From contig JARGNI010000006.1 of the NCBI GenBank assembly GCA_029213195.1, positions 124,001 to 188,000 on the forward strand: a DNA stretch of 64,000 bases, read 5' to 3'. Of the stretch, positions 2,457-22,167 are shown piece by piece. The translations under genes were made by a program, and so were the position numbers. Under the pieces are notes generated by a model. It worked only from the letters and a program-made list of their open reading frames with translations, searched no databases and was not told the origin of the DNA. Within the stretch, counting starts at the first letter, position 1, and every line of letters starts with the position of its first letter. The stretch comes from Verrucomicrobiales bacterium (lineage in GTDB: Bacteria; Verrucomicrobiota; Verrucomicrobiia; Verrucomicrobiales; DEV007).

Positions 2457-5099
2457 TCAATCCCACCTCCTCAACCACAATCCCAACCAGAGTGGGACCG
2501 AGGCGAATCCAAAGATCACTCCCCAATCTACCGACGATGGTTCACGGAGACTGAGGACATCGGCAAGAAGCGGGTGATAGCAGGCCATCGCGAGAAGGAT
2601 GATACAAACTCCGTGGGCCGCCCAGACCATCGGATTGCGGACAATCACGCTGGCAAAATAAGGCTCGTCCCGTTCCGCCATGTTGAAAACGTGAACCAAT
2701 TGCGCGATGGCAAGAGTGAAGAAAGAAATCGTGACCGCCTCCTCCGAAGTGTTTTCCAGTCGGACGATGGCAAACACATAAGCACCCAGCGTTGCTGCGG
2801 CGATCACCAACGCATGTCGGAGGATCCGCGCCCAGTCCCTCCAGCGCAGGACAGGCTCATGTTTTCCTCGTGGCGGATGCGAAAGCACATTGCCCTGGGA
2901 ATGAGTGACCCCGAGTGCCAGAGCAGGAAAAACGTCGGTCACGAGATTGAGGAAAAGAATCTGGAGAGGCAGGATCGGAAGCTGCGAAGCGACCAGCATC
3001 GCCAACCCCACCACGAAGATCTCGCTGAGGTTGCACGAAATCAGGTAGGTCACGAACTTCCGGATGTTCGAGAAGATCGTTCGCCCCTGCCTGATCGCCG
3101 CCACGATGCTGGGGAATGCATCATCTCGCAGGACCATAGCCGCGGCCTCCCGCGCTACTTCTGTTCCCCGCAATCCCATCGCGATCCCGATGTCGGCCTG
3201 CTTCAGGGCGGGGGCATCGTTGACCCCATCGCCCGTCATTGCCACGACCTGCCCTTCCTCCTGGTAGAGTTGGACCAGTTCAAATTTCTGCGTCGGTGTC
3301 GCCCGGGATATCACATTCGTCCGCAGGATCCGTTTGCGGTCCTCCGGTTGAGACGGATCCAGACTCGCCAACTCGGCACCGCTCATGACCTCTTCCACGT
3401 TCAGTCCGATATCCTCCGCGATCGACTTCGCCGTCTCCGCCTGGTCACCAGTCACCATCACGATGCGGACTCCCGCCTCGATACAGTCCTCGATCGCATC
3501 GGGGACGTCTTTCCGCGGAGGATCCATCATTCCGATCAGTCCGTAGAAGTCCAAATTGGCAAAAGGATCTTCATCAGAATCCTCCATCGATTTTCCGGCC
3601 AGGCCGATGACCCGGAGCCCCTGCGAGGCAAGCGAAGCATTTCGTTTCTCCCAGGTTGAAATCTCCTCGGCCATGTCGGGACAAAGAGGGAAGATCGCTT
3701 CCGGAGCTCCTTTCACCGAAACGACAGTCTCCCCGCCTTTCCGGCACAGCGTCGCCATACGACGGGAAACGGAGTCAAAGGGAACTTCCCCGATGCGTTC
3801 CACCTCTTCAATCCACTCCGCGAGATCGAGACCTGCTTCCTGCGCCCCTTCCAATAGAGATACCTCGAGTGGATCCCCGGCCGCCGCGCTGTCTTCCGCC
3901 GCCAGCTGAGCATTGTTGCATAAGCATCCCGCTCCCAGCAATCGGCAGGCCCCCTCCTCCGCGGAGAGGTTCGGTTTCATTTCCTTCTCGCGTTCCTCAT
4001 CCGCCATCCACAGGACCGAAACTTTCATCCGGTTCTCGGTCAGGGTTCCCGTCTTGTCAGTACAGATCACACCGGTCGATCCGAGAGTTTCGACGGCGGA
4101 AAGTCGATTGATGAGCGCATTCCGTTCCGCCATGCGCCAAAGTCCCCGCGCCAGAGCGATCGTTGCGACCACGGGCAACCCTTCCGGAATCGCAGCCACG
4201 GCAAGAGCAATCGCCGTCTGGATCATCAGGGAAACATCCCGTCCCATCAGGATCCCGACAGCGGCAATGACGAGGGTGAGAATGACAACTACCCGAATCA
4301 GCCGATAGCCGAGCCGGTCGAGCTGCTTCTCCAGCGGAGTCGAGGTTCGCTTGGCCCGACTTACCAACTCGGAAATTCGACCCAGTTCGCTGTCGGTGCC
4401 GGTCGCCGTGACGAGGCCTGTGCCAGTCCCCTCCGTGATCCGAGCTCCCCGAAAAAGCATCGATTTTCTCACGGCCAAGTCGGAGTCTTCCGCGACAGCG
4501 TCGGTCTGCTTGCGAATCGGAAGCGATTCGCCAGTCAGGGAACTCTCATCGGATTGCAGGAGATTGGCGGACAAAATCCGAAGATCAGCCGGAACGATAT
4601 CTCCTGCCTCCAATAGGACAAGGTCGCCCGGGACAAGATCCTCGGCCGCGATAACCCGCACCGTTCCCCGACGGACCCGAACCATGGTGCGGGAAAGCTT
4701 TTTCAGCGCATCCATCGAGCGGGTCGCTTTCCACTCGGTGGCGAATCCAATCAAGGCATTGATGACTACCACTGCGAGCACGGCGATCGCTTCGACAACG
4801 TCCCCAATCGCCGCGGATACGATTGCCGCAGTTACAAGCAACACCACGATCAAGCTGCGAAACTGGCCAAAGAACAGTACCCAGAGGCTGACCGGAGGGG
4901 TCGCAGCAATCCTGTTGGAACCAAACTGCAGGAGTCGCTTCTCTCCCTCCGCAGATGTGATCCCATCCGCAGAAGAAGCGAGCGATTCGACGACTGAATC
5001 CACCGAATCGGACCAGGGTGTTTTCGGCAGGGACAGGCTCGAATCTACCGCTGCCTGGAAATGAGACCTACGCGTTTTCATTGTCATCGACAATTTCAC
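2457..5099 (-). CDS. P-type ATPase, calcium-transporting (P2A/SERCA-like)
   Basis: An 880-residue cation pump that hydrolyses ATP to move a cation across the inner membrane. Full family architecture is visible: actuator-domain TGES loop, phosphorylation motif DKTGTLTEN with the acceptor aspartate near residue 348, MVTGDQAETAKSIA in the P domain and the hinge GDGVNDAPALKQADIG. The M4 motif PEGLP and M6 motif NLVTDVFPALALG match calcium-type pumps rather than heavy-metal or potassium pumps. Length is normal. The 5' end is uncertain: GTG at 5099 overlaps the upstream protease gene by 32 bases, while ATG codons at 5087 and 5081 would shorten it by four or six residues. The overlap suggests co-transcription and translational coupling with the M50 protease. 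Confidence 0.9.
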   Translation of the reverse strand: MKLSMTMKTRRSHFQAAVDSSLSLPKTPWSDSVDSVVESLASSADGITSAEGEKRLLQFGSNRIAATPPVSLWVLFFGQFRSLIVVLLVTAAIVSAAIGDVVEAIAVLAVVVINALIGFATEWKATRSMDALKKLSRTMVRVRRGTVRVIAAEDLVPGDLVLLEAGDIVPADLRILSANLLQSDESSLTGESLPIRKQTDAVAEDSDLAVRKSMLFRGARITEGTGTGLVTATGTDSELGRISELVSRAKRTSTPLEKQLDRLGYRLIRVVVILTLVIAAVGILMGRDVSLMIQTAIALAVAAIPEGLPVVATIALARGLWRMAERNALINRLSAVETLGSTGVICTDKTGTLTENRMKVSVLWMADEEREKEMKPNLSAEEGACRLLGAGCLCNNAQLAAEDSAAAGDPLEVSLLEGAQEAGLDLAEWIEEVERIGEVPFDSVSRRMATLCRKGGETVVSVKGAPEAIFPLCPDMAEEISTWEKRNASLASQGLRVIGLAGKSMEDSDEDPFANLDFYGLIGMMDPPRKDVPDAIEDCIEAGVRIVMVTGDQAETAKSIAEDIGLNVEEVMSGAELASLDPSQPEDRKRILRTNVISRATPTQKFELVQLYQEEGQVVAMTGDGVNDAPALKQADIGIAMGLRGTEVAREAAAMVLRDDAFPSIVAAIRQGRTIFSNIRKFVTYLISCNLSEIFVVGLAMLVASQLPILPLQILFLNLVTDVFPALALGVTHSQGNVLSHPPRGKHEPVLRWRDWARILRHALVIAAATLGAYVFAIVRLENTSEEAVTISFFTLAIAQLVHVFNMAERDEPYFASVIVRNPMVWAAHGVCIILLAMACYHPLLADVLSLREPSSVDWGVIFGFASVPLWLGLWLRRWD

Positions 5100-11819: not shown

Positions 11820-13997
11820 ATGAGCGCCACCCTTCCAGATCCCGAAGAAATTCGAGGTGTCGTGCACGCGGTGGTTTTCCATAACGAGGAAAACGGTTAC
11901 ACCATCATGCAAGTCGATCGAGCTGCCGGAGACAGGATTTCCGTTCTCGGGAACCTGCCTGCCGTGGTCGAAGGGGAAGAAATCCACGCGAGAGGTCACT
12001 GGAGAAAGGATCAGAAATTCGGGCGACAATTCCAGGCCGATCACATCGATGCGGTCGCGCCGGCGACGACGGAAGGGATTGAGCGTTTTCTCGCCAGCGG
12101 CCTTATCGACGGGATCGGAAAGACCTATGCAAAACGAATCGTCGAAGCCTTTGGGAAAGAAACCTTCCGCATTATCGATGAGGCATCGCAGAAGCTCGAA
12201 TCGGTCCCCGGCATCGGAAAAGCACGTCGAATCAAGATCAAGGACTCGTGGAAACGGCAGAAATCGGTGCGCGACATCATGATCTTTCTCCACGAGCAGG
12301 GCATCTCGACGGCTCGCGCTCTCCGCTTGTTCAAGGAATACGGAGAAGAAGCCGTCGCCATTCTCCGGGCTGACCCCTACCGACTGGCCCGGGAGATTCC
12401 GGGGATCGGATTCAAGACCGCCGATGAGATTGCCCGGAAAATGGGTCAGCCCGACGATGCTCCCCAGCGGATTCAGTCCGGGATCCTCTTCGTTCTCGAA
12501 CAAGCCGAGCACCAGGGACACTGCGCGCTGCCTCGGGGCGAATTGGTTTCCGGTGCCGCAGAAACACTCTCGATTCCGTTCGACCAGGCCGATGCCGCCA
12601 TCGATCACCTCATCGAGGGAGAGAAGATCGTGCTTCGAGAAACAGAGTCCGGCCCACTCGTTTTCCTCAAAGAGTTGGACGAAGCGGAGACGGTCATTGC
12701 CGACTCCATCCGAGCGCTCGCTCGATCCCCGTCGACACTTCCGACCATCCAGCCCGATTCCGCGATCGCCTGGTTCGAGCGTCATCATCAATTGAAACTC
12801 GGGGAAGAGCAGGCTGCTGCCGTTCTCCAGGCCTGCCAGTCTCGGATTTTCATCATCACCGGTGGACCGGGAGTCGGGAAAACGACCATTCTCCGCGCCG
12901 TCCTCGCTATCCTTAGTTCGAAGAAGGTTCGCCCGATTCTTTGCGCCCCGACCGGGCGAGCCGCCCGGCAACTTTCCGAGAGTACCGGTTTCGAAGCGGC
13001 GACGATCCACCGAACCCTGGAGTATCAACCAGGGCACGGGTTCACCCGTCATCGGGAGAATCCTCTCGAGGGGGATCTCATCGTCATCGATGAGGCATCG
13101 ATGCTGGATGTGCGATTGATGTCTCAACTGCTCCTCGCAATGCCTCGGAAGGCGAGCCTGCTTCTTGTCGGCGACGTCGATCAGCTCCCCTCGGTCGGTC
13201 CCGGCAACGTCCTCCAGGACTTGATCCGAAGCCGCCTCTCTCCGGTTTCCCGACTGACTCAGATCTATCGACAGGCGGCAGCCAGCTCCATCATCGATGC
13301 TTCCCATGCCGTGAATCGTGGGAACCTTCCTCCCTTGGAAAACGGAGCCGATTCTGACTTCTTCTTCCTCGAAAGAGACAATCCCCAGGAAATCCTCTCC
13401 ACGGTGGAACAACTTCTCAGCAAACGCATCCCCGAAGGATTTGGGCTGCACCCCCGCGACGATATCCAGCTGCTCACTCCGATGAATCGGCAGGCCCTCG
13501 GAACCCGGGAGCTCAACCAGGAACTCCAGAAAAAGCTGAATCCGCCGAGCGAGTTCAAAACCGAAATCGTCCGTTTCGGAACGACCTTCCGCGAAGGCGA
13601 CAAGGTCATGCAGACCCGGAACAACTACGAAAAGGAGATCTTCAACGGAGACATCGGGCACATCATCGAGATCACGACCGAGCCAACCTCCATCTATGTT
13701 CGTTTCGGGGAAGAGGCAGTCCACTTCGAACCCGGGGAACTGGACGAATTGCAACTCGCGTATGCGATCACGATCCACAAATCACAGGGAAGCGAATTTC
13801 CCGCTGTCGTAATCCCCCTGGCATCCCAGCACTACATGCTCCTGCAGAGGAATCTTCTCTACACGGCGATCACGCGGGGGAAGCGACTCGTCATCCTCGT
13901 CGGAGAACGGAAAGCATTGGAAATGGCGGTTCGCAAAACAGAAAGCGTTCACCGCCATACCGGATTGCAGCACCGTCTCGGCAAGGCAGACTCCTGA
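11820..13997 (+). CDS. recD2: RecD2-type ATP-dependent DNA helicase
   Basis: A 725-residue superfamily 1B 5'-3' helicase of the RecD2/YrrC type, which works without RecBC. The N-terminal OB-like segment (RGVVHAVVFHNEENGYTIMQ) is followed by helix-hairpin-helix repeats (VPGIGKARRIKIK, IPGIGFKTADEIA), typical of RecD2. Walker A is GGPGVGKTT at residues 348-356 with lysine 354; Walker B is VIDEASMLD; then GDVDQLPSVGPG and the C-terminal AITIHKSQGSEFPAVVIPL. Length and order are as expected. Its role is probably in DNA repair or mismatch and replication-fork processing. It is divergent from secG and convergent with the Lon-like gene, with only 16 bases between stops. Confidence 0.92.
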   Translation: MSATLPDPEEIRGVVHAVVFHNEENGYTIMQVDRAAGDRISVLGNLPAVVEGEEIHARGHWRKDQKFGRQFQADHIDAVAPATTEGIERFLASGLIDGIGKTYAKRIVEAFGKETFRIIDEASQKLESVPGIGKARRIKIKDSWKRQKSVRDIMIFLHEQGISTARALRLFKEYGEEAVAILRADPYRLAREIPGIGFKTADEIARKMGQPDDAPQRIQSGILFVLEQAEHQGHCALPRGELVSGAAETLSIPFDQADAAIDHLIEGEKIVLRETESGPLVFLKELDEAETVIADSIRALARSPSTLPTIQPDSAIAWFERHHQLKLGEEQAAAVLQACQSRIFIITGGPGVGKTTILRAVLAILSSKKVRPILCAPTGRAARQLSESTGFEAATIHRTLEYQPGHGFTRHRENPLEGDLIVIDEASMLDVRLMSQLLLAMPRKASLLLVGDVDQLPSVGPGNVLQDLIRSRLSPVSRLTQIYRQAAASSIIDASHAVNRGNLPPLENGADSDFFFLERDNPQEILSTVEQLLSKRIPEGFGLHPRDDIQLLTPMNRQALGTRELNQELQKKLNPPSEFKTEIVRFGTTFREGDKVMQTRNNYEKEIFNGDIGHIIEITTEPTSIYVRFGEEAVHFEPGELDELQLAYAITIHKSQGSEFPAVVIPLASQHYMLLQRNLLYTAITRGKRLVILVGERKALEMAVRKTESVHRHTGLQHRLGKADS

Positions 13998-14013: not shown

Positions 14014-15708
14014 CTAATCCGAATCTCCCAGTTCCTTCTTCACATCCGCGCGAGAATGAAGACGCTCGAATTCCTTGCCTACAGCTTCGCCCGATGATTG
14101 AAGCTTGTTGAGCAGGTCGATTTGTTTCTGTCGAGTGTTGGGACGCTTGTTCACCCAGGTATCGACATACCCGGAGTATTCGATGATGGCGTCGGCACAG
14201 TCGCGGGTGCGAGGGTCCAACTGGGCTCTTTGACGTTGCAGCGCATACTTGGACTCGAGATAGAGGTTTTTCTCGAAAGAACCGGTTTCCTCGAACCGCC
14301 CCTGCTCCAAACCCTTGATGAGCGGAGCGGCAGCTTGATCAATCGCGGTGAGAGATCCCGATAGAGTAAGCTCCTTTGGATTTCTCCCAAGCCCGGCGAG
14401 AAGAAGATACCTCGCCGAGAGATGATTCGGAGCGAGTTGAACGATCCTGCGAAGGGATTGCTGGACCTTGGGACTGCGCAGCAGTGCATTGCTGCTCGAC
14501 CGCTGCATCGCGCTCTGGATCTTTGCAAACTCGGAAATGGCACTTCGAAGCTCTTCCGACCTTTCTTCCGGAACGCGAGCCAGGGCGAGAGCCTCGGCGT
14601 GGGTCTTGATACTGAAAATCTGGATCCCCGTCAGCGCTCCGGCCCCTTCGAGCAGGAGAAGATCCGCGACCGATCCGGCGTTCTCGACAGGGATCGCAAT
14701 GACCTCGCAACCTCTCTTCCTGGCCCCACGAATCTTGCCATCGATGCCGCCGACAGGTCCTACCTGCCCGGCCTCGCTCATATCTCCGGTCACGGCGAAA
14801 CGCTGATCAAAGTCGATATCCTGGATGATGGACTCCAGGAGGAGAAACGAGGCCACGGCTGCCGAGGGCCCGTCCTTCGGGATGTATTGTTCCTCGAAGC
14901 TCAACTCGATCGCGATGCCCTTCGGCAGTTCGCCATGCCGTTCCTCGACCAGGGAAACGGCCCGGGTCAAAGCTCCCGACATCATCTTCCCCACCCCCTG
15001 GTTGAAGCGAACCTCACACGCACGCTTCGAATCCGATCGACCAAGAACGGTGGCATTCATCTGGGAGGCGGAGCCCGCGAATCTCGAACCAGGCAACTCC
15101 TGAACGAGGAGCCCCTTGATCAAGGCCTGCTTCCTCCCGACACCACCGGGAAGATTCGATTTCTCCGCGGGAGCCCCCTTCATCGCTGCCCCCGAGATCA
15201 GGGAATCCTCCCAGGATAGGGAAACCCCATCCCGGATGCGCAGGACCTCCAGCTCGTAGGCGAGATCGACATCGTCGGGATTCAGTTGGAGGGCAAGATC
15301 GAAGAGGTGTGCGGAAATCGCGGGCTCGGAATTTCGCAGGGAGATTCCAATTTCGGAAATCTGCTTGGCGTAGAGACGCTGCCCGGCCTCGGAGAGGGAA
15401 TCCGAGGAACCTTCGACCGGTTCCGGCGCATCGAGGGACTGCAGGAAAAGCCCCACCTTCTTCCGATAGAGCGCAGGAAGCTCCTCGCTCTCGCTGAGAG
15501 GCCCCAGCGACTCGACAAGACCTTCGCGAGCCGCCTCGGGAATCCTCGAATCGAGATTCTCAAACACGCTCGCCCTTTTCTCCTGGGCGATGGCACGATC
15601 CAAACCCGGAAAAACGATGAGGAAACCGATCACGATGAGTTTGCCCACAGCAAGGGCGATCCTCTCTCGAGACCTCTGCTGCTCTCTTTCACCCAAGGAT
15701 TCCTTCAT
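14014..15708 (-). CDS. exported Lon-type (S16) serine protease domain protein
   Basis: This 564-residue protein has a basic, long N-region and a hydrophobic helix at residues 19-35, followed by AIAQEK, so it is exported or membrane-anchored. It lacks the AAA+ ATPase of true Lon. Residues 225-385 form an S16 proteolytic domain: KDGPSAAVAS holds the serine nucleophile (S282) and GPVGGIDGKIRGARKRG holds the lysine (K325). Their 43-residue spacing equals that of the Ser-Lys dyad in E. coli Lon. Flanking regions are helical, and APNHLSARYLLLAG near residue 440 looks like a TPR-type helix pair. Its start overlaps the stop of the upstream paralogue by four bases (ATGA), so the two are translationally coupled. 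Substrate is unknown. Confidence 0.8.
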   Translation of the reverse strand: MKESLGEREQQRSRERIALAVGKLIVIGFLIVFPGLDRAIAQEKRASVFENLDSRIPEAAREGLVESLGPLSESEELPALYRKKVGLFLQSLDAPEPVEGSSDSLSEAGQRLYAKQISEIGISLRNSEPAISAHLFDLALQLNPDDVDLAYELEVLRIRDGVSLSWEDSLISGAAMKGAPAEKSNLPGGVGRKQALIKGLLVQELPGSRFAGSASQMNATVLGRSDSKRACEVRFNQGVGKMMSGALTRAVSLVEERHGELPKGIAIELSFEEQYIPKDGPSAAVASFLLLESIIQDIDFDQRFAVTGDMSEAGQVGPVGGIDGKIRGARKRGCEVIAIPVENAGSVADLLLLEGAGALTGIQIFSIKTHAEALALARVPEERSEELRSAISEFAKIQSAMQRSSSNALLRSPKVQQSLRRIVQLAPNHLSARYLLLAGLGRNPKELTLSGSLTAIDQAAAPLIKGLEQGRFEETGSFEKNLYLESKYALQRQRAQLDPRTRDCADAIIEYSGYVDTWVNKRPNTRQKQIDLLNKLQSSGEAVGKEFERLHSRADVKKELGDSD

Positions 15709-17336
15709 CGCATCAACTCCTCCCGAATTGCAGGTTTCCTGAGAACGGCCTCGTACTCATCCCGCACCCGAGTCTTGGCGGCTTCGACGAGGGCTTTCCG
15801 ATTGTCCCCGATCCGGCCAGTGTTCGAATACTGGATCACGGCATTGGTCAATTTTTCGAGTCTCGGGTCGATGGCATACTGTACCCGGGTCAACGCCCGG
15901 AACTCCGCACCTCGATCTCCCTCCTCCCTTCCATTTCCAGGATCGCCCTCTCCTCCCACGAGATCGAACACCGGGTCCACGACGAGGTCCAGCGAAGCAG
16001 CGAGACTGAGTTGCTTCGGAACCTGGTTGGTAGCCCAGAGTCCCAGCATCCGCGCAGAGAGATGATTCGGTGCCAGTGCCAGGACTTCACGAAGCTTGGT
16101 GATGGTCGAAGGGTGCTTGAGGTGACGGTGCCCCTCCGGCTGAGTCAGGACATCCTGGATGATGGTAAACTTCTCGATCGCCTCCTTCAGTTTCCCGTCA
16201 CGGTTATCGTTCTCGCCCGAGAGAGCCACCGCATCGGAAAAACTCTTCAAGGTAAAGATCTGGTGCTTCGCAAAAATTCGCGGCCCATCGAGAATCAACG
16301 CGTCGCTGACGGATGGATAGTCGGTCAACGGAATCCCGATGATTTGAGAGCCGCCGTCTTCCAGGGCCTCTATCCGCTCGAGGACATCGTAGATCGGTTG
16401 AATCGAGCCGTCTGCATTCACATCGCCAGCGAGGGCCACTGCAGGATCGATCTCCGTCCCGTCGATCAAGGCCTGCAGAGCGACCAGTCCGGGCAAGGCT
16501 GCGGCTGGCCCTTGGTAGTCGAAGAAATCCTTCCCATGATCTGTATTCGTCTCGAATGAGATCCGGACTCCACGCAGTGCCCCCGGTCGAGTGACCTCGA
16601 GAAACTTGACCCCTTCCCGAAAAGCGGAGGTGAAATAGGACGTTATGAGATCTCCCTCGGCGAGAAACTGCAGGGGATGGTTTCCTCCTCCACTGCCCTT
16701 GGCCACAATCTCGATCAGGCCCTGGGTCGAAAACAGGGAGATGCGATGAACCTGCACTTCCGACCCCAGCGAAGTTCCTGCTGAAGCCCCCCCGAGGTCT
16801 GGAAACACATTGTCCCACGATGGTTCAAACCCCTTCCCTCGGAGGCTCGCCAGTCCACTCATCACGTCCGAGCCATTCTCCTCCGTGGAGTCGAGCAGAT
16901 CGAAGAGATGGAGGGCCAACCACTGCTCCGACTTCTCGGAACTCCCCTCCATTTGCTTCGCAGACCCAAGAATGACCGCCGATGCCTCGGAGAGGGTCTC
17001 GTATCGTCCCAGCTTCGCCGGAGTCACGCCTCGAGAAAGTTGGTAGTCGGCTACAAAGGTCTCTTTGTGAAGCGGAGCGATCCGACGGGAAACGGCGACC
17101 GCTTTCGCCTTCGACTGAGGGGATACTGCTTCAAAATCACGAGCGAGGCTGGCCAGTGCATCCAGCAACTGGTCCCGCACTTCCGCCTCGATCGACAGCC
17201 CGCCCGAAGGGAGCGGCAGAGCCTCATATTTAGGGCGAGAATAGGAGTCCTCAGAAATGAGCGGGGAATTCTGACCGAGGAACAGGCCTGCAACCAGGAT
17301 TCCCTGGACCCATCGTTGGCACTTCTCCCCTTTCAT
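15705..17336 (-). CDS. exported Lon-type pseudoprotease, paralogue of the downstream gene
   Basis: A 543-residue exported protein; the ATG at 17336 gives a clean signal peptide (GILVAGLFLGQNS), whereas a start at 17408 would add 24 residues. It is a full-length paralogue of the overlapping S16 gene. Over the catalytic core the two align without gaps: TGDM-EAGQVGPVGG against AGDVNADGSIQPIYD, then IAIPVEN against IGIPLTD, and both carry LAPNHLSAR near the C-terminus. The nucleophile is replaced (GPSAA to GPAAA, alanine 278) and the lysine is replaced by arginine 321, so it should be proteolytically dead. It probably acts as partner, scaffold or inhibitor of the active paralogue; that role is inference. 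Confidence 0.75.
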   Translation of the reverse strand: MKGEKCQRWVQGILVAGLFLGQNSPLISEDSYSRPKYEALPLPSGGLSIEAEVRDQLLDALASLARDFEAVSPQSKAKAVAVSRRIAPLHKETFVADYQLSRGVTPAKLGRYETLSEASAVILGSAKQMEGSSEKSEQWLALHLFDLLDSTEENGSDVMSGLASLRGKGFEPSWDNVFPDLGGASAGTSLGSEVQVHRISLFSTQGLIEIVAKGSGGGNHPLQFLAEGDLITSYFTSAFREGVKFLEVTRPGALRGVRISFETNTDHGKDFFDYQGPAAALPGLVALQALIDGTEIDPAVALAGDVNADGSIQPIYDVLERIEALEDGGSQIIGIPLTDYPSVSDALILDGPRIFAKHQIFTLKSFSDAVALSGENDNRDGKLKEAIEKFTIIQDVLTQPEGHRHLKHPSTITKLREVLALAPNHLSARMLGLWATNQVPKQLSLAASLDLVVDPVFDLVGGEGDPGNGREEGDRGAEFRALTRVQYAIDPRLEKLTNAVIQYSNTGRIGDNRKALVEAAKTRVRDEYEAVLRKPAIREELMR

Positions 17337-17351
17337 GAGAGTCAAAAATAG

Positions 17352-17630
17352 CAAAACCGGTGCCCATCTGTCACGAATCCATATTTCTTTTCCGGATCTT
17401 CTTACCAACCTGGATATTCCGATCTCTCAGGAGAAGGAGAGGAAAGCCTCCAATGGATCGGGTTCTTCAGCCAGGCGACCACCGACACGACACTCTGGAT
17501 CGATGATCTCGAAGTATCGCGAGCGAAGTGCCTGAAGGCCCGGGAATCGCCCACGAATCCACCGAACCCCATCTTGACGGGTTGTGTCGGAAAAGGTTAC
17601 AACCGCAAGGAATTCAGCGTCCCATCATGA
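17352..17630 (+). pseudogene. orphan C-terminal protein fragment without a start codon
   Basis: An open frame with no usable ATG reads like the tail of a secreted beta-sandwich protein: YQPGYSDLSGEGEE, then LQWIGFFSQATTDTTLWIDD. This resembles C-terminal 'deformation/dissection' segments of PVC-phylum proteins. It ends in TGA overlapping the ATG of the next gene (ATGA), an arrangement normally seen between coupled genes. An in-frame TAG at 17349 cuts it off upstream, and its 5' part runs antisense through the leader of the pseudo-Lon gene. It is best read as the relic of a gene whose 5' part was lost. The call rests on protein-like texture only. Confidence 0.3.
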
Positions 17631-18220
17631 AACGATCTCGTCTCCTCACCCTGCTGATCGGGCTTTGGCTCGTCCCGGCACTCTGCTCTGCCGAATGGCA
17701 CACCTTCACCAGCGCCGACGGCTCCAAGAAACTTGAAGCAGTCGTGCAGGACTACAACATCGATTCAGGTGTCGCGACGCTCCGACTCAAGGACAACCGA
17801 AAAATCACCGCCCCCGCAACTGCCTTTTCGGAAGCGGACCAGGAACATCTTGAGGAAATCGGTCTCGCATTCAAACTCGGACGGAGTCTGTGGGTAGAAT
17901 TCGAGGACGAGGAGAGCGTCGTCAGTGAAAAACGGAATCCGACGAACGGATACCAGACCATGGAACTCAAGAACGGATACCGCCTCGAGGTGAGAAACAA
18001 TGGAACCGTCCCCTTCGACGGACTCATCGCTGAGTATCAGGTCTTCTACGGAGCCTACGAAAATCCTTTCAAAGACAACGAGAAGACTACCCAGGTCCAC
18101 CGTGGCAAAATCGATCTTCCAGTCTTGCAGCCGCGAGAAGAAACCGTCGTAAAGACCGATTCGGTCAACCTGACCTCGATCAAGCGATTACCGCTAAAAG
18201 AATGCGTCGGGGGGTCGTGA
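17627..18220 (+). CDS. secreted SHD1-domain protein, probably truncated by an in-frame stop
   Basis: A 197-residue exported protein starting at ATG 17627; the longer upstream reading lacks a signal peptide. Residues 1-22 are the signal peptide (LLTLLIGLWLVPALCSA). Residues 23-75 are an SHD1-like domain (EWHTFTSADGSKKLEAVVQD, then VATLRLKDNRKITAPATAFS), a module common in secreted PVC-phylum proteins. The second half is a beta domain (LKNGYRLEVRNNGTVPFDGL, EYQVFYGAYENPF) whose last strand appears to continue, in the same frame, beyond the TGA at 18218-18220. The gene is therefore probably a recent truncation, or the tail was separated by a small insertion. Function unknown. Confidence 0.65.
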   Translation: MKRSRLLTLLIGLWLVPALCSAEWHTFTSADGSKKLEAVVQDYNIDSGVATLRLKDNRKITAPATAFSEADQEHLEEIGLAFKLGRSLWVEFEDEESVVSEKRNPTNGYQTMELKNGYRLEVRNNGTVPFDGLIAEYQVFYGAYENPFKDNEKTTQVHRGKIDLPVLQPREETVVKTDSVNLTSIKRLPLKECVGGS

Positions 18221-18434: not shown

Positions 18435-18959
18435 TTAGTCTGACGCCCCCACCCAGGTTGCGTCAATGATCTGCCCGTGATGCTCGTTCCCTGAGTGGTC
18501 ACGCAAAACAAGCCCTTCTCCGGCTTCAAAAAGGTAGAGGCCGATCGTGGCTTCTTCTCTTCGCAACTGGCTCGGAGGAGTGAAGCCCTCTTCGTATCGA
18601 ACCCCTTTCGAAACACGGAATTGCTCGATCTTGCCTTCGAAATTTCCTCCAAGATACATGGGGTGAGGAGTTGCTGAAAATTCGACCGAAGAGTCCACCA
18701 CCACGCGGTCCTTGAGCTCCCCGTTGACGAAGATCGTTATGATTTCCCCGTCCGAAGTCGTGGCAAGATGCGTCCGCTCGCCAGTGTCCCGCTCCACCCC
18801 GAGAGCAAGTTTCAGGAGATCTTCCACCCGATTCTGAAGATCAAGGTCTCCGGCACAGGCTCCTTCGACGAAGCTTTGCCGCTCTTCAGGATCCCGAATG
18901 GAAACCGCAGTTTGAAACACTTCCTGCTCTTGGTTCGGAGAAGAATCAGGATCGTTCAT
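18435..18959 (-). pseudogene. remnant joining a Ser/Thr kinase N-terminus to a LamG C-terminus
   Basis: This 174-residue frame is intact but looks like a deletion product. Residues 1-52 (QTAVSIRDPEERQSFVEGAC, then VEDLLKLAL) are the typical N-terminal helices of PVC-phylum Ser/Thr kinase or kinase-like proteins, in which a catalytic domain should follow. Instead residue 53 onward is the C-terminal half of a LamG/concanavalin-like domain: TIFVNGELKDRV, YLGGNFEGKIEQFRVSKGVR, then FTPPSQL and DHSGNEHHGQI. Kinase, membrane helix and first LamG strands are all missing. An intact original would be a kinase-LamG protein of 800-1,000 residues. Whether the small frame is still expressed is unknown. 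It lies in a short region with other broken genes. Confidence 0.5.
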
Positions 18960-20718: not shown

Positions 20719-22167
20719 ATGAACGATCAAGAGGCAGCCCTATGGGAGCGAATCGAATCCTTCTCGATCGGCGAGACGACCGCCGTATTTGGTTTCCACC
20801 ATCGTCTCGCCAGAGAAAACGGATGGACCTATGCTTTCGCAGAAAAAGTGATCGAGGAATACAAGCGATTCATGTTTCTCGCCGTTTGCGCGGATCATCC
20901 CGTAACGCCTTCCGAAGAGGTCGATCAAGCTTGGCATCTCCATCTCGTCTACACCCACTCCTACTGGGAGGAGTTTTGTCGAGACATCCTCGGGAAACCC
21001 ATACACCACGGCCCCACGAAGGGTGGGATCGTAGAGGCGGATCGGTTTGAGGACTGGTATTCCCGAACTCTCGAAAGCTATGAACGCTTGTTTGGGGAAA
21101 AGCCTCCCGAAGATGTCTGGCCCACGATCGAAAAGCGCTTTCTTCCTCGAAAGTGGCAGTGGATCGATCGTCGAAGCCACTGGATCCTTCGTCGCCCCCG
21201 GTTCTTCGATCGAATCACCCTGGGAGGGGTCGCGACCCTCATAGCCAGTCTCCTCCCGGTGCTCCTTTTGACGGGATGCGTTGGGAATGTGTTGAACTGG
21301 TATGGGACTCCATTTCTCCTCCTCTATCTCGCCCTCCTTCCGGCCGCATTGGTTCTCGCTCTCTCACTGAGTGCCTTGGCCAGGCCCTCGGGTCGATATG
21401 TCGAACGATTCGACTCCCCCTACGAGCTGGCATTCCTTCGCGGGGGCCAACCTCGAGCCTTTGCAGCCATGCTCGGGAAACTCGTCGCAGTTGGAGCGAT
21501 CACGGTAAGTAAGAGTCGTCGAAGCGGAGGCTGGATTCGAAGGGCTGAGGATGACATCGACCATTCCGAAAACCTGACTCTGGAGGAACAACGAATGCTT
21601 TCAGCGATTCCCATGGGGAAGGAAATCAGCCTCAAAAATCTGAGCAAGTCCGTGGGCACGATCTTCGACGAGATCAAGGAACGCCTCATTCGAGGCGGCG
21701 CCCTCATCAGCAATGGTGGGAGAGCTTTCGTTCAATTCCTGATGAGCGTTCCTTTCGTCTTGCTCGCTCTCCTCGGGGTCCTGAAAATCGGGATCGGAAT
21801 TTCACGCGACAAACCTTTTCTCTATCTGCTCATTCTCGTGGTGCTCACCTTCGTCGCGATGACATTCTTGGTGAAGAAAGCTCCGCGAAGAACTCGCGAA
21901 GCCGATCGCTTCTGGAAACGGGCGAGAAAACCGCTGCAGTCCGAAGCTCGGCAGAATCTCTCTTCCGGCAGTGAAGCGGCGGTTCCTGTCGCGGTCGCAG
22001 TCCTCGGAACGTCCGCCGTTTCCAATATCGAAGGCTTCGAAGATTTTCACCCCGCCGTTCGCTATCTCGAGCAACAGGCCGCGAGAACGACTACCGGAGA
22101 TGGCGGTTGCGGCAGCGGCTGTGGTGGGGGCGGATGCGGGGGTGGATGTGGCGGATGCGGCGGGTAG
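20719..22167 (+). CDS. TIGR04222-type membrane protein with Gly/Cys-rich tail
   Basis: A 482-residue membrane protein. The N-terminal third has the soluble domain seen in glycine-rich-domain proteins, with CADHPVTPSEEVDQAWHLHL and YTHSYWEEFC. Two helices at about 180-225 are followed by a cytoplasmic winged-helix-like region (FLRGGQPRAFAAMLGKLVAV, LEEQRMLSAI) typical of the TIGR04222 family, then two more helices at about 335-390. The C-terminus is a run of Gly and Cys (GCGSGCGGGGCGGGCGG), a family hallmark also found in DUF2207-like proteins. Function is not established; a cell-envelope role is likely. It is divergent from the sialate esterase across 108 bases. Confidence 0.75.
   Translation: MNDQEAALWERIESFSIGETTAVFGFHHRLARENGWTYAFAEKVIEEYKRFMFLAVCADHPVTPSEEVDQAWHLHLVYTHSYWEEFCRDILGKPIHHGPTKGGIVEADRFEDWYSRTLESYERLFGEKPPEDVWPTIEKRFLPRKWQWIDRRSHWILRRPRFFDRITLGGVATLIASLLPVLLLTGCVGNVLNWYGTPFLLLYLALLPAALVLALSLSALARPSGRYVERFDSPYELAFLRGGQPRAFAAMLGKLVAVGAITVSKSRRSGGWIRRAEDDIDHSENLTLEEQRMLSAIPMGKEISLKNLSKSVGTIFDEIKERLIRGGALISNGGRAFVQFLMSVPFVLLALLGVLKIGIGISRDKPFLYLLILVVLTFVAMTFLVKKAPRRTREADRFWKRARKPLQSEARQNLSSGSEAAVPVAVAVLGTSAVSNIEGFEDFHPAVRYLEQQAARTTTGDGGCGSGCGGGGCGGGCGGCGG

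Follow-up and report, generated by a model that had tools for sequence, protein, structure and literature searches.

The window analysed here, a 64,000-nucleotide stretch of a Verrucomicrobiales bacterium genome (assembly GCA_029213195.1, contig JARGNI010000006.1, positions 124,001 to 188,000), carries on its minus strand two overlapping genes for S16 (Lon-type) proteins. The downstream gene (14014..15708) encodes P0001, a protein of 564 amino acids with a Ser-Lys dyad and a signal-peptide-like start. The upstream gene (15705..17336) encodes P0002, a paralogue of 543 amino acids, counted from its ATG, that has the predicted S16 fold and lacks the dyad. Linked pairs of this kind were found by computation in 39 genomes, always in one gene order, and in one of the two families concerned selection acts on the dyad-less protein. 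With a probability of roughly 0.5, we propose that the two genes form one functional unit of the cell envelope, composed of an ATP-independent S16 serine peptidase (P0001) and a pseudo-peptidase (P0002).

The presence of a dyad-bearing S16 protein with an overlapping dyad-less paralogue was confirmed. Direct reading upheld what a first-pass annotation of this DNA had stated about the open reading frame (ORF) coordinates, the strand, the residues at the dyad positions and the ATGA start/stop overlap between the two genes, which the ORF coordinates place at 15705..15708. P0001 carries Ser282 (codon TCG, 14863..14865) and Lys325 (codon AAG, 14734..14736). In the alignment, Ala278 of P0002 (codon GCC, 16503..16505) occupies the position of the catalytic Ser and Arg321 (16374..16376) that of the catalytic Lys; the spacing is 43 residues in both proteins. 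The reading frame of P0002 itself opens at a TTG at 17408, ahead of the ATG start. In a BLASTP comparison, the two proteins were 27% identical over 426 amino acids (E-value 3e-33) with no gap between the dyad positions, in agreement with the earlier description of P0002 as a paralogue that aligns ungapped through the dyad. The downstream gene was assigned from its ORF, profile match and fold, and the upstream gene from its ORF, the BLASTP match and its fold.

P0001 matched the Pfam Lon_C profile with 52.9 bits (E-value 4.6e-14, cut-off 21.1 bits). P0002 stayed below this cut-off (15.4 bits, E-value 0.015); therefore, the profile alone fails to recognise the upstream copy, and the S16 match that the first-pass annotation had proposed as a check was obtained for P0001 only. 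The predicted fold does recognise P0002 as S16, with residues 197-378 (16203..16748) placed on the proteolytic domain of E. coli Lon (3wu6_F; VIA Z 18.6, 2.0 Å, 165 aligned). The S16 fold of P0001 comprises residues 193-383 (14560..15132) and matched the same domain in 1rr9_F (VIA Z 22.4, 1.7 Å, 176 aligned). Foldseek matches to the E. coli domain had E-values of 2.3e-12 for P0001 and 3.5e-08 for P0002. Structure prediction of each protein thus bore out the S16 assignment for both. The mean predicted local distance difference test (pLDDT) scores were 84.2 for P0001 and 85.7 for P0002, the latter model being of low confidence at residues 183-193 and 215-217. In both models, the S16 domain is flanked on either side by helical parts. 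Structural matches to MtaLonC span residues 194-386 of P0001, and the N-terminal part was barely covered by the comparison.

The earlier claim of an S16 domain without an AAA+ ATPase stood: up to an E-value of 1, the Pfam results for both proteins contained no AAA+ family (most matches above 0.1 are removed by the HMMER filters). They contained no PDZ domain in this range either, and no LON N-terminal domain was found in the Pfam scan of P0001. Lon equivalog models scored far below their cut-offs for both proteins, and the SepM model NF041438 gave 18.2 bits for P0001 with a cut-off of 200. Judged by sequence and model, P0001 is a predicted S16 peptidase, combining the fold with the Ser-Lys dyad, and proteolysis is its predicted activity. 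P0002 has, by the same measures, the S16 fold without the Ser-Lys dyad.

Relatives were surveyed in stretches around listed matches from 161 sources (160 loci and the window), in which all ORFs of at least 100 amino acids were scored. The fractions given here describe these examined loci, not the whole order; the loci exclude at least four matches on the list (G408, G620, G635 and G690:C121). ORFs above 250 bits with the A1 profile were assigned to a catalytic clade regardless of the dyad; 77 other family rows lay below 250 bits, including a divergent Ser/Lys protein (L274, 149.5 bits) and a Ser/Lys fragment of a broken gene (L076). A gene was counted as directly upstream if it lay on the same strand, between an overlap of 120 bases and a gap of 600 bases. 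The catalytic clade comprised 136 ORFs spread over 112 genomes. Directly upstream of these lay a degenerate copy in 41 cases, a catalytic copy in 7 and neither in 78, and 10 had insufficient room. Two of the 41 cases were dropped, L071, where a frameshift divides one catalytic gene, and L295, with a Tyr/Lys copy beside a partial degenerate gene. The remaining 39 linked pairs, one per genome, represent 39 genomes, 11 genera and two families (8 pairs in f1, the family of the window, and 31 in f2).

The degenerate gene came first in all 39 pairs. The pairs were identified by inspecting the region upstream of catalytic ORFs; in the reverse order, no intact degenerate copy was found downstream, where 129 of the 136 ORFs had room, only a broken-gene fragment at L277. 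In f2, a degenerate neighbour stood beside 32 of 37 catalytic ORFs of middle length (including the later-dropped L295) and beside none of the 16 shorter or longer ones. In f1, the count was 9 of 44, L071 included. Seven of the eight f1 pairs overlap by four bases or lie at most three bases apart. The flanking genes fall into several sets between genome groups while the pair is constant, and neighbour clustering gave no operon partner that is constant beside the copies or the pair. The search for the same adjacent pair in relatives, suggested in the first-pass annotation, therefore found it in two families and not in one genome alone: linked homologous genes, one of them dyad-less, are conserved as such.

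Wider searches placed these relatives mainly in the order of the window. Across the phylum, 78 of 383 genomes matched the catalytic-clade profile at an E-value of 1e-15 or lower. Strong matches (E-value <1e-50) came from the window's order plus one outside genome (G284), and the weaker ones were mostly short and within Lon-sized frames. Named relatives include Verrucomicrobiales metagenome-assembled genomes (MAGs), a MAG labelled Prosthecobacter debontii and Verrucomicrobium sp. BvORR034. A search of the order with P0002 matched at least 160 of 386 genomes at an E-value of 1e-6 or lower. Among the best 80 loci listed in a scan with A1, 7 were relatives of the exported kind, all Verrucomicrobiales or its named members by title, and the other 73 had family-profile scores of 97-138 bits, as true Lons do. 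A contig scan with P0001 alone as query did not find any relative.

The residue pattern separates the two kinds of copy. In the catalytic clade, 133 of the 136 ORFs carry Ser/Lys, with one Ser/Met, one Tyr/Lys and one Ser/Arg. The residue table was taken from a full-length alignment of 131 rows, whose 74 catalytic rows are part of the 136 ORFs; it replaced an earlier motif table from cut rows, in which the S16 front of divergent degenerate copies had been lost. At the columns of Asp279, Ser282, Thr307 and Lys325, the residues D, S, T and K each occurred in 73 of the 74 catalytic rows, and members of this clade share 24-43% identity with P0001 (32 rows). The two true Lons of the alignment read D, S, T and K in the same columns, which have roles in Lon. 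All 39 downstream pair members are Ser/Lys. Among the 38 readable upstream members, Ser was present twice, Lys once and both together in none. Relatives thus do not vary freely at the dyad in both copies; free variation would have spoken against the first-pass reading.

Within the window's own branch, the upstream copies read A/R (the window, G497 and G438), G/R (G029) and S/R (G023, where the upstream gene is split over two contigs and the residues were taken from the front piece). All copies read from this branch have Arg on the Lys side, and the Ser side varies. The degenerate type of f2 is distinguished by an invariant Asn at column 279 (31 of 31 copies); its most divergent copies are about 15% identical to P0002, and their column assignment is less sure.

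Both proteins of the window are predicted to be exported. Signal peptides were called with a custom sequence rule with controls (true Lons and internal pieces), not with SignalP. The N-termini of P0001 and P0002 both pass this rule and look exported, as the first-pass annotation had supposed. The start of P0001 shows a clear charged-hydrophobic-small pattern over about residues 1-42 (15583..15708), with a putative cleavage site, and the start of P0002 a weaker one. Of the complete pair members, 35 of 38 catalytic and 31 of 36 degenerate proteins passed, as did 103 of 127 catalytic proteins of at least 380 amino acids and 26 of 28 solitary degenerate proteins. Of the controls, true Lons passed in 7 of 68 cases and internal pieces in 1 of 127. 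An earlier, looser rule was passed by 45 of the 68 true Lons; it was discarded, and the stricter rule took its place. In one relative (L040, 4802-7063), a catalytic S16 protein of 753 amino acids, a C-type lectin domain precedes the S16 domain. Such domains usually occur outside the cytosol, and this one therefore supports an extracytosolic placement. We know of no such combination of C-type lectin and S16 domains elsewhere.

The ratio of nonsynonymous to synonymous substitution rates (dN/dS) was calculated for 35 of the 39 pairs (595 comparisons), leaving out L285, L057, L210 and L216 with partial genes. Usable synonymous distances were obtained only in f2. In the 11 closest comparisons, all within f2, degenerate genes had values of 0.13-0.27 and catalytic genes values of 0.03-0.13. 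The f2 degenerate genes are therefore not decaying and are under purifying selection. Degenerate genes change faster in protein sequence than the catalytic genes. The identities of the two genes were rank-correlated, at 0.83 over all 595 comparisons and at 0.90 over the 251 with catalytic identity above 45%, the comparisons being non-independent. In a 97-row tree from cut rows, the degenerate and catalytic groups of f2 branch similarly. A full-length tree was computed from 113 of the 131 rows, after dropping the partial L057 and L096, L053, the first copy of L208 and seven near-duplicate genomes. In this tree, all degenerate rows fall to the same side of a single branch with a Shimodaira-Hasegawa-like approximate likelihood ratio test (SH-aLRT) value of 86, not starred. 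The grouping may reflect one ancient loss of the dyad, or long-branch attraction.

For the proposed unit, each protein would leave the cytosol by its own signal peptide, and P0001 and P0002 would assemble together. We infer this assembly because S16 domains of Lon form rings and because both chains share the S16 domain and the helical C-terminal part. P0002, made first, may help P0001 to assemble, or may bind or gate substrate in place of the missing AAA+ ring. The unit would act on periplasmic or surface-located substrates, either unfolded proteins or peptides. The odds of a mixed complex are carried by the linkage and the residues, not by dN/dS. The first-pass interpretation, a hetero-oligomeric protease outside the cytosol in which the dead copy regulates or presents substrates, is partly supported: an active-looking and a dyad-less copy are made together, and relatives have the same pair. 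The boldest form of the proposed unit, in which a self-compartmentalising two-chain S16 protease uses the pseudo-Lon as gate and receptor replacing the AAA+ motor, as an ATP-free periplasmic or surface Lon of Verrucomicrobiales, is put forward tentatively and seems rather unlikely.

Several observations weigh against one functional unit. In 28 of the 31 f2 pairs, the genes are separated by 27-164 bases, and therefore the tight overlap seen in the window is not general. In f1, synonymous sites are saturated and dN/dS was unobtainable for the window's own family; the degenerate gene gave 0.43-0.48 in two comparisons at a synonymous distance of 2.1 and about 0.34 in one at 2.0, all too saturated. 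Open frames and the shared residue pattern are the only signs of constraint there. Matching trees and the rank correlation prove no interaction because linked genes share ancestry. As counted above, a directly upstream family member is lacking for 78 of the 136 catalytic ORFs. For 20 of 22 f4 genomes among the matches listed, a search with the degenerate profile gave no member of the degenerate clade, bar one weak match; the matches otherwise were known catalytic-clade ORFs or scored like them.

A solitary degenerate type, exported-looking and mostly of about 640 amino acids, weighs in the same direction. At least 28 of the 33 genomes from the genus contain it (22 of the 28 were read; G002, G011, G017, G018, G023 and G027 rest on match rows), and it is represented by L037:3685-5619 (G000:C74) and its relatives L049, L050 and L097-L115. 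None of the 22 copies read carries both Ser and Lys. An exported catalytic copy was found in 16 of the 33 genomes, including one Ser/Met copy (G028) and two broken frames (G022 and G026), and the solitary type is thus the more widespread of the two there. In 15 of the 33 genomes, many with incomplete assemblies, the solitary type occurred with no exported catalytic copy found; therefore, a dyad-less S16 protein can serve alone.

These solitary copies favour the reading that the two proteins have separate jobs and are joined only by shared expression, the degenerate S16 fold serving for binding or as a scaffold, with a ligand of its own. The faster protein evolution of the degenerate genes and the Asn peculiar to the f2 type point the same way. 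However, the solitary type lies on a different branch from the window's paired type, and the pairs persist despite changing flanks; we regard separate jobs as possible, with the odds clearly against them. A dedicated inhibitor, chaperone or zymogen-keeper, made first and remaining outside the working enzyme, would account for the degenerate gene standing first in every pair with no intact reverse case and for the close spacing in f1, and full-length homology would allow it to cap the catalytic subunit. Against this, the many catalytic ORFs without an upstream family member indicate that constant inhibition is not generally needed, and the pairs descend from few events, so that their fixed order amounts to few independent observations. 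This explanation is considered unlikely. Finally, neither protein may be a protease today, the S16 fold having been reused outside the cytosol with Ser-Lys serving another purpose. YlbL of B. subtilis, an S16 protein without AAA+, is reported to have been proteolytically inactive in vitro when purified without its membrane segment (PMC6051672). However, Ser and Lys are kept almost throughout the catalytic clade, together with the Asp and Thr columns, in proteins of low identity to P0001, which makes such a reuse very improbable.

The pair stands by itself in the window. A RecD2-like helicase gene (11820-13997, plus strand) converges on it and ends 16 bases off, and an ORF on the other flank (17528-18220, plus strand) is transcribed in the direction away from it. 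A scan for promoters and terminators gave chance level, with 1 promoter-like match (0.8 expected) and 4 terminator-like matches (3.7 expected). Further along the window, the ORF at 18435-18959 has a laminin-G-like match of 26.9 bits (Pfam cut-off 27.6), and the ORF at 20719-22167 (482 amino acids) has a C-terminal tail rich in glycine and cysteine. The same genome additionally encodes a full-length Lon (G000:C81) and, as a fourth family member, the solitary degenerate relative L037. In other loci, ten neighbours of S16 copies were named by Pfam, including a caspase, a mechanosensitive channel and a TonB receptor; at L040, a caspase-domain (C14) gene (3399-4625) adjoins the catalytic S16 gene. 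Tandem catalytic copies occur. L203:4576-11616 (f4) holds three tandem S16 copies reading Ser/Lys, Ser/Arg and Ser/Lys, and the Ser/Arg copy may mark a second, recent emergence of a dyad-less copy. At L208:1242-5020, there are two tandem degenerate copies and no catalytic copy in the examined stretch.

Lon domains are known mainly within ATP-driven cytosolic machines, and ATP is not expected outside the cytosol. An extracytosolic cutting domain that is retained next to a like-folded pseudo-enzyme might reveal how proteases of this kind are regulated when no motor is present. The pair would be a simple two-gene system for testing the role of a pseudo-enzyme. To our knowledge, P0002 would be the first pseudo-Lon partner.

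P0001 and P0002 share the fold of the E. coli Lon proteolytic domain (MEROPS S16; PDB 1rr9 and 3wu6), and P0001 shares the dyad 43 residues apart. Unlike E. coli Lon, the window pair has no AAA+ or LON N-terminal domain that could be found, a signal-peptide-like start and a dyad-less paralogue alongside. The S16-like domains of ComM, RadA and ChlI share the fold as well, ComM being a structural match of P0002 (Z 15.8). These domains are cytosolic and fused to ATPases, and they are not known to carry the Ser-Lys dyad or to be paired with a catalytic copy. YlbL and SepM (PDZ-S16) have in common with the pair an S16 domain without AAA+ and differ in the PDZ domain, which was not found in P0001 or P0002; we know of no pseudo-enzyme partner of either. 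MtaLonC differs from the pair in being one protein with an AAA-like remnant, and it is cytosolic.

YlbL is believed to work extracytosolically (PMC6051672). MtaLonC is a Lon-like hexamer without ATPase activity that degrades unfolded substrates without ATP (PMC3391209). In the chloroplast ClpP/ClpR cores, catalytic and non-catalytic homologous subunits are joined in one protease (PMC6508832), which belongs to another peptidase family, lies inside an organelle and works with AAA+ chaperones. The M16B active/inactive pairs, namely mitochondrial processing peptidase, TTHA1264/TTHA1265 and AlbF/AlbE, contain one chain without the catalytic motif, and in T. thermophilus the partner is encoded by the neighbouring gene (PMC12731061); their metallopeptidase fold is unrelated to that of the window pair. 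Published precedents exist for each half of the proposed unit, namely S16 proteins without AAA+ outside the cytosol, ATP-free Lon-like hexamers, and active/inactive partners. The consulted part of a survey of S16 architectures (PMC2605481) holds nothing like the window pair, and the top-ranked results among open-licence papers contained no account of pseudo-enzyme partners for exported S16 proteins. As far as sequences can tell, the pair is best called a joining of known kinds in a new form, a putative extracytosolic S16 peptidase with a linked pseudo-enzyme.

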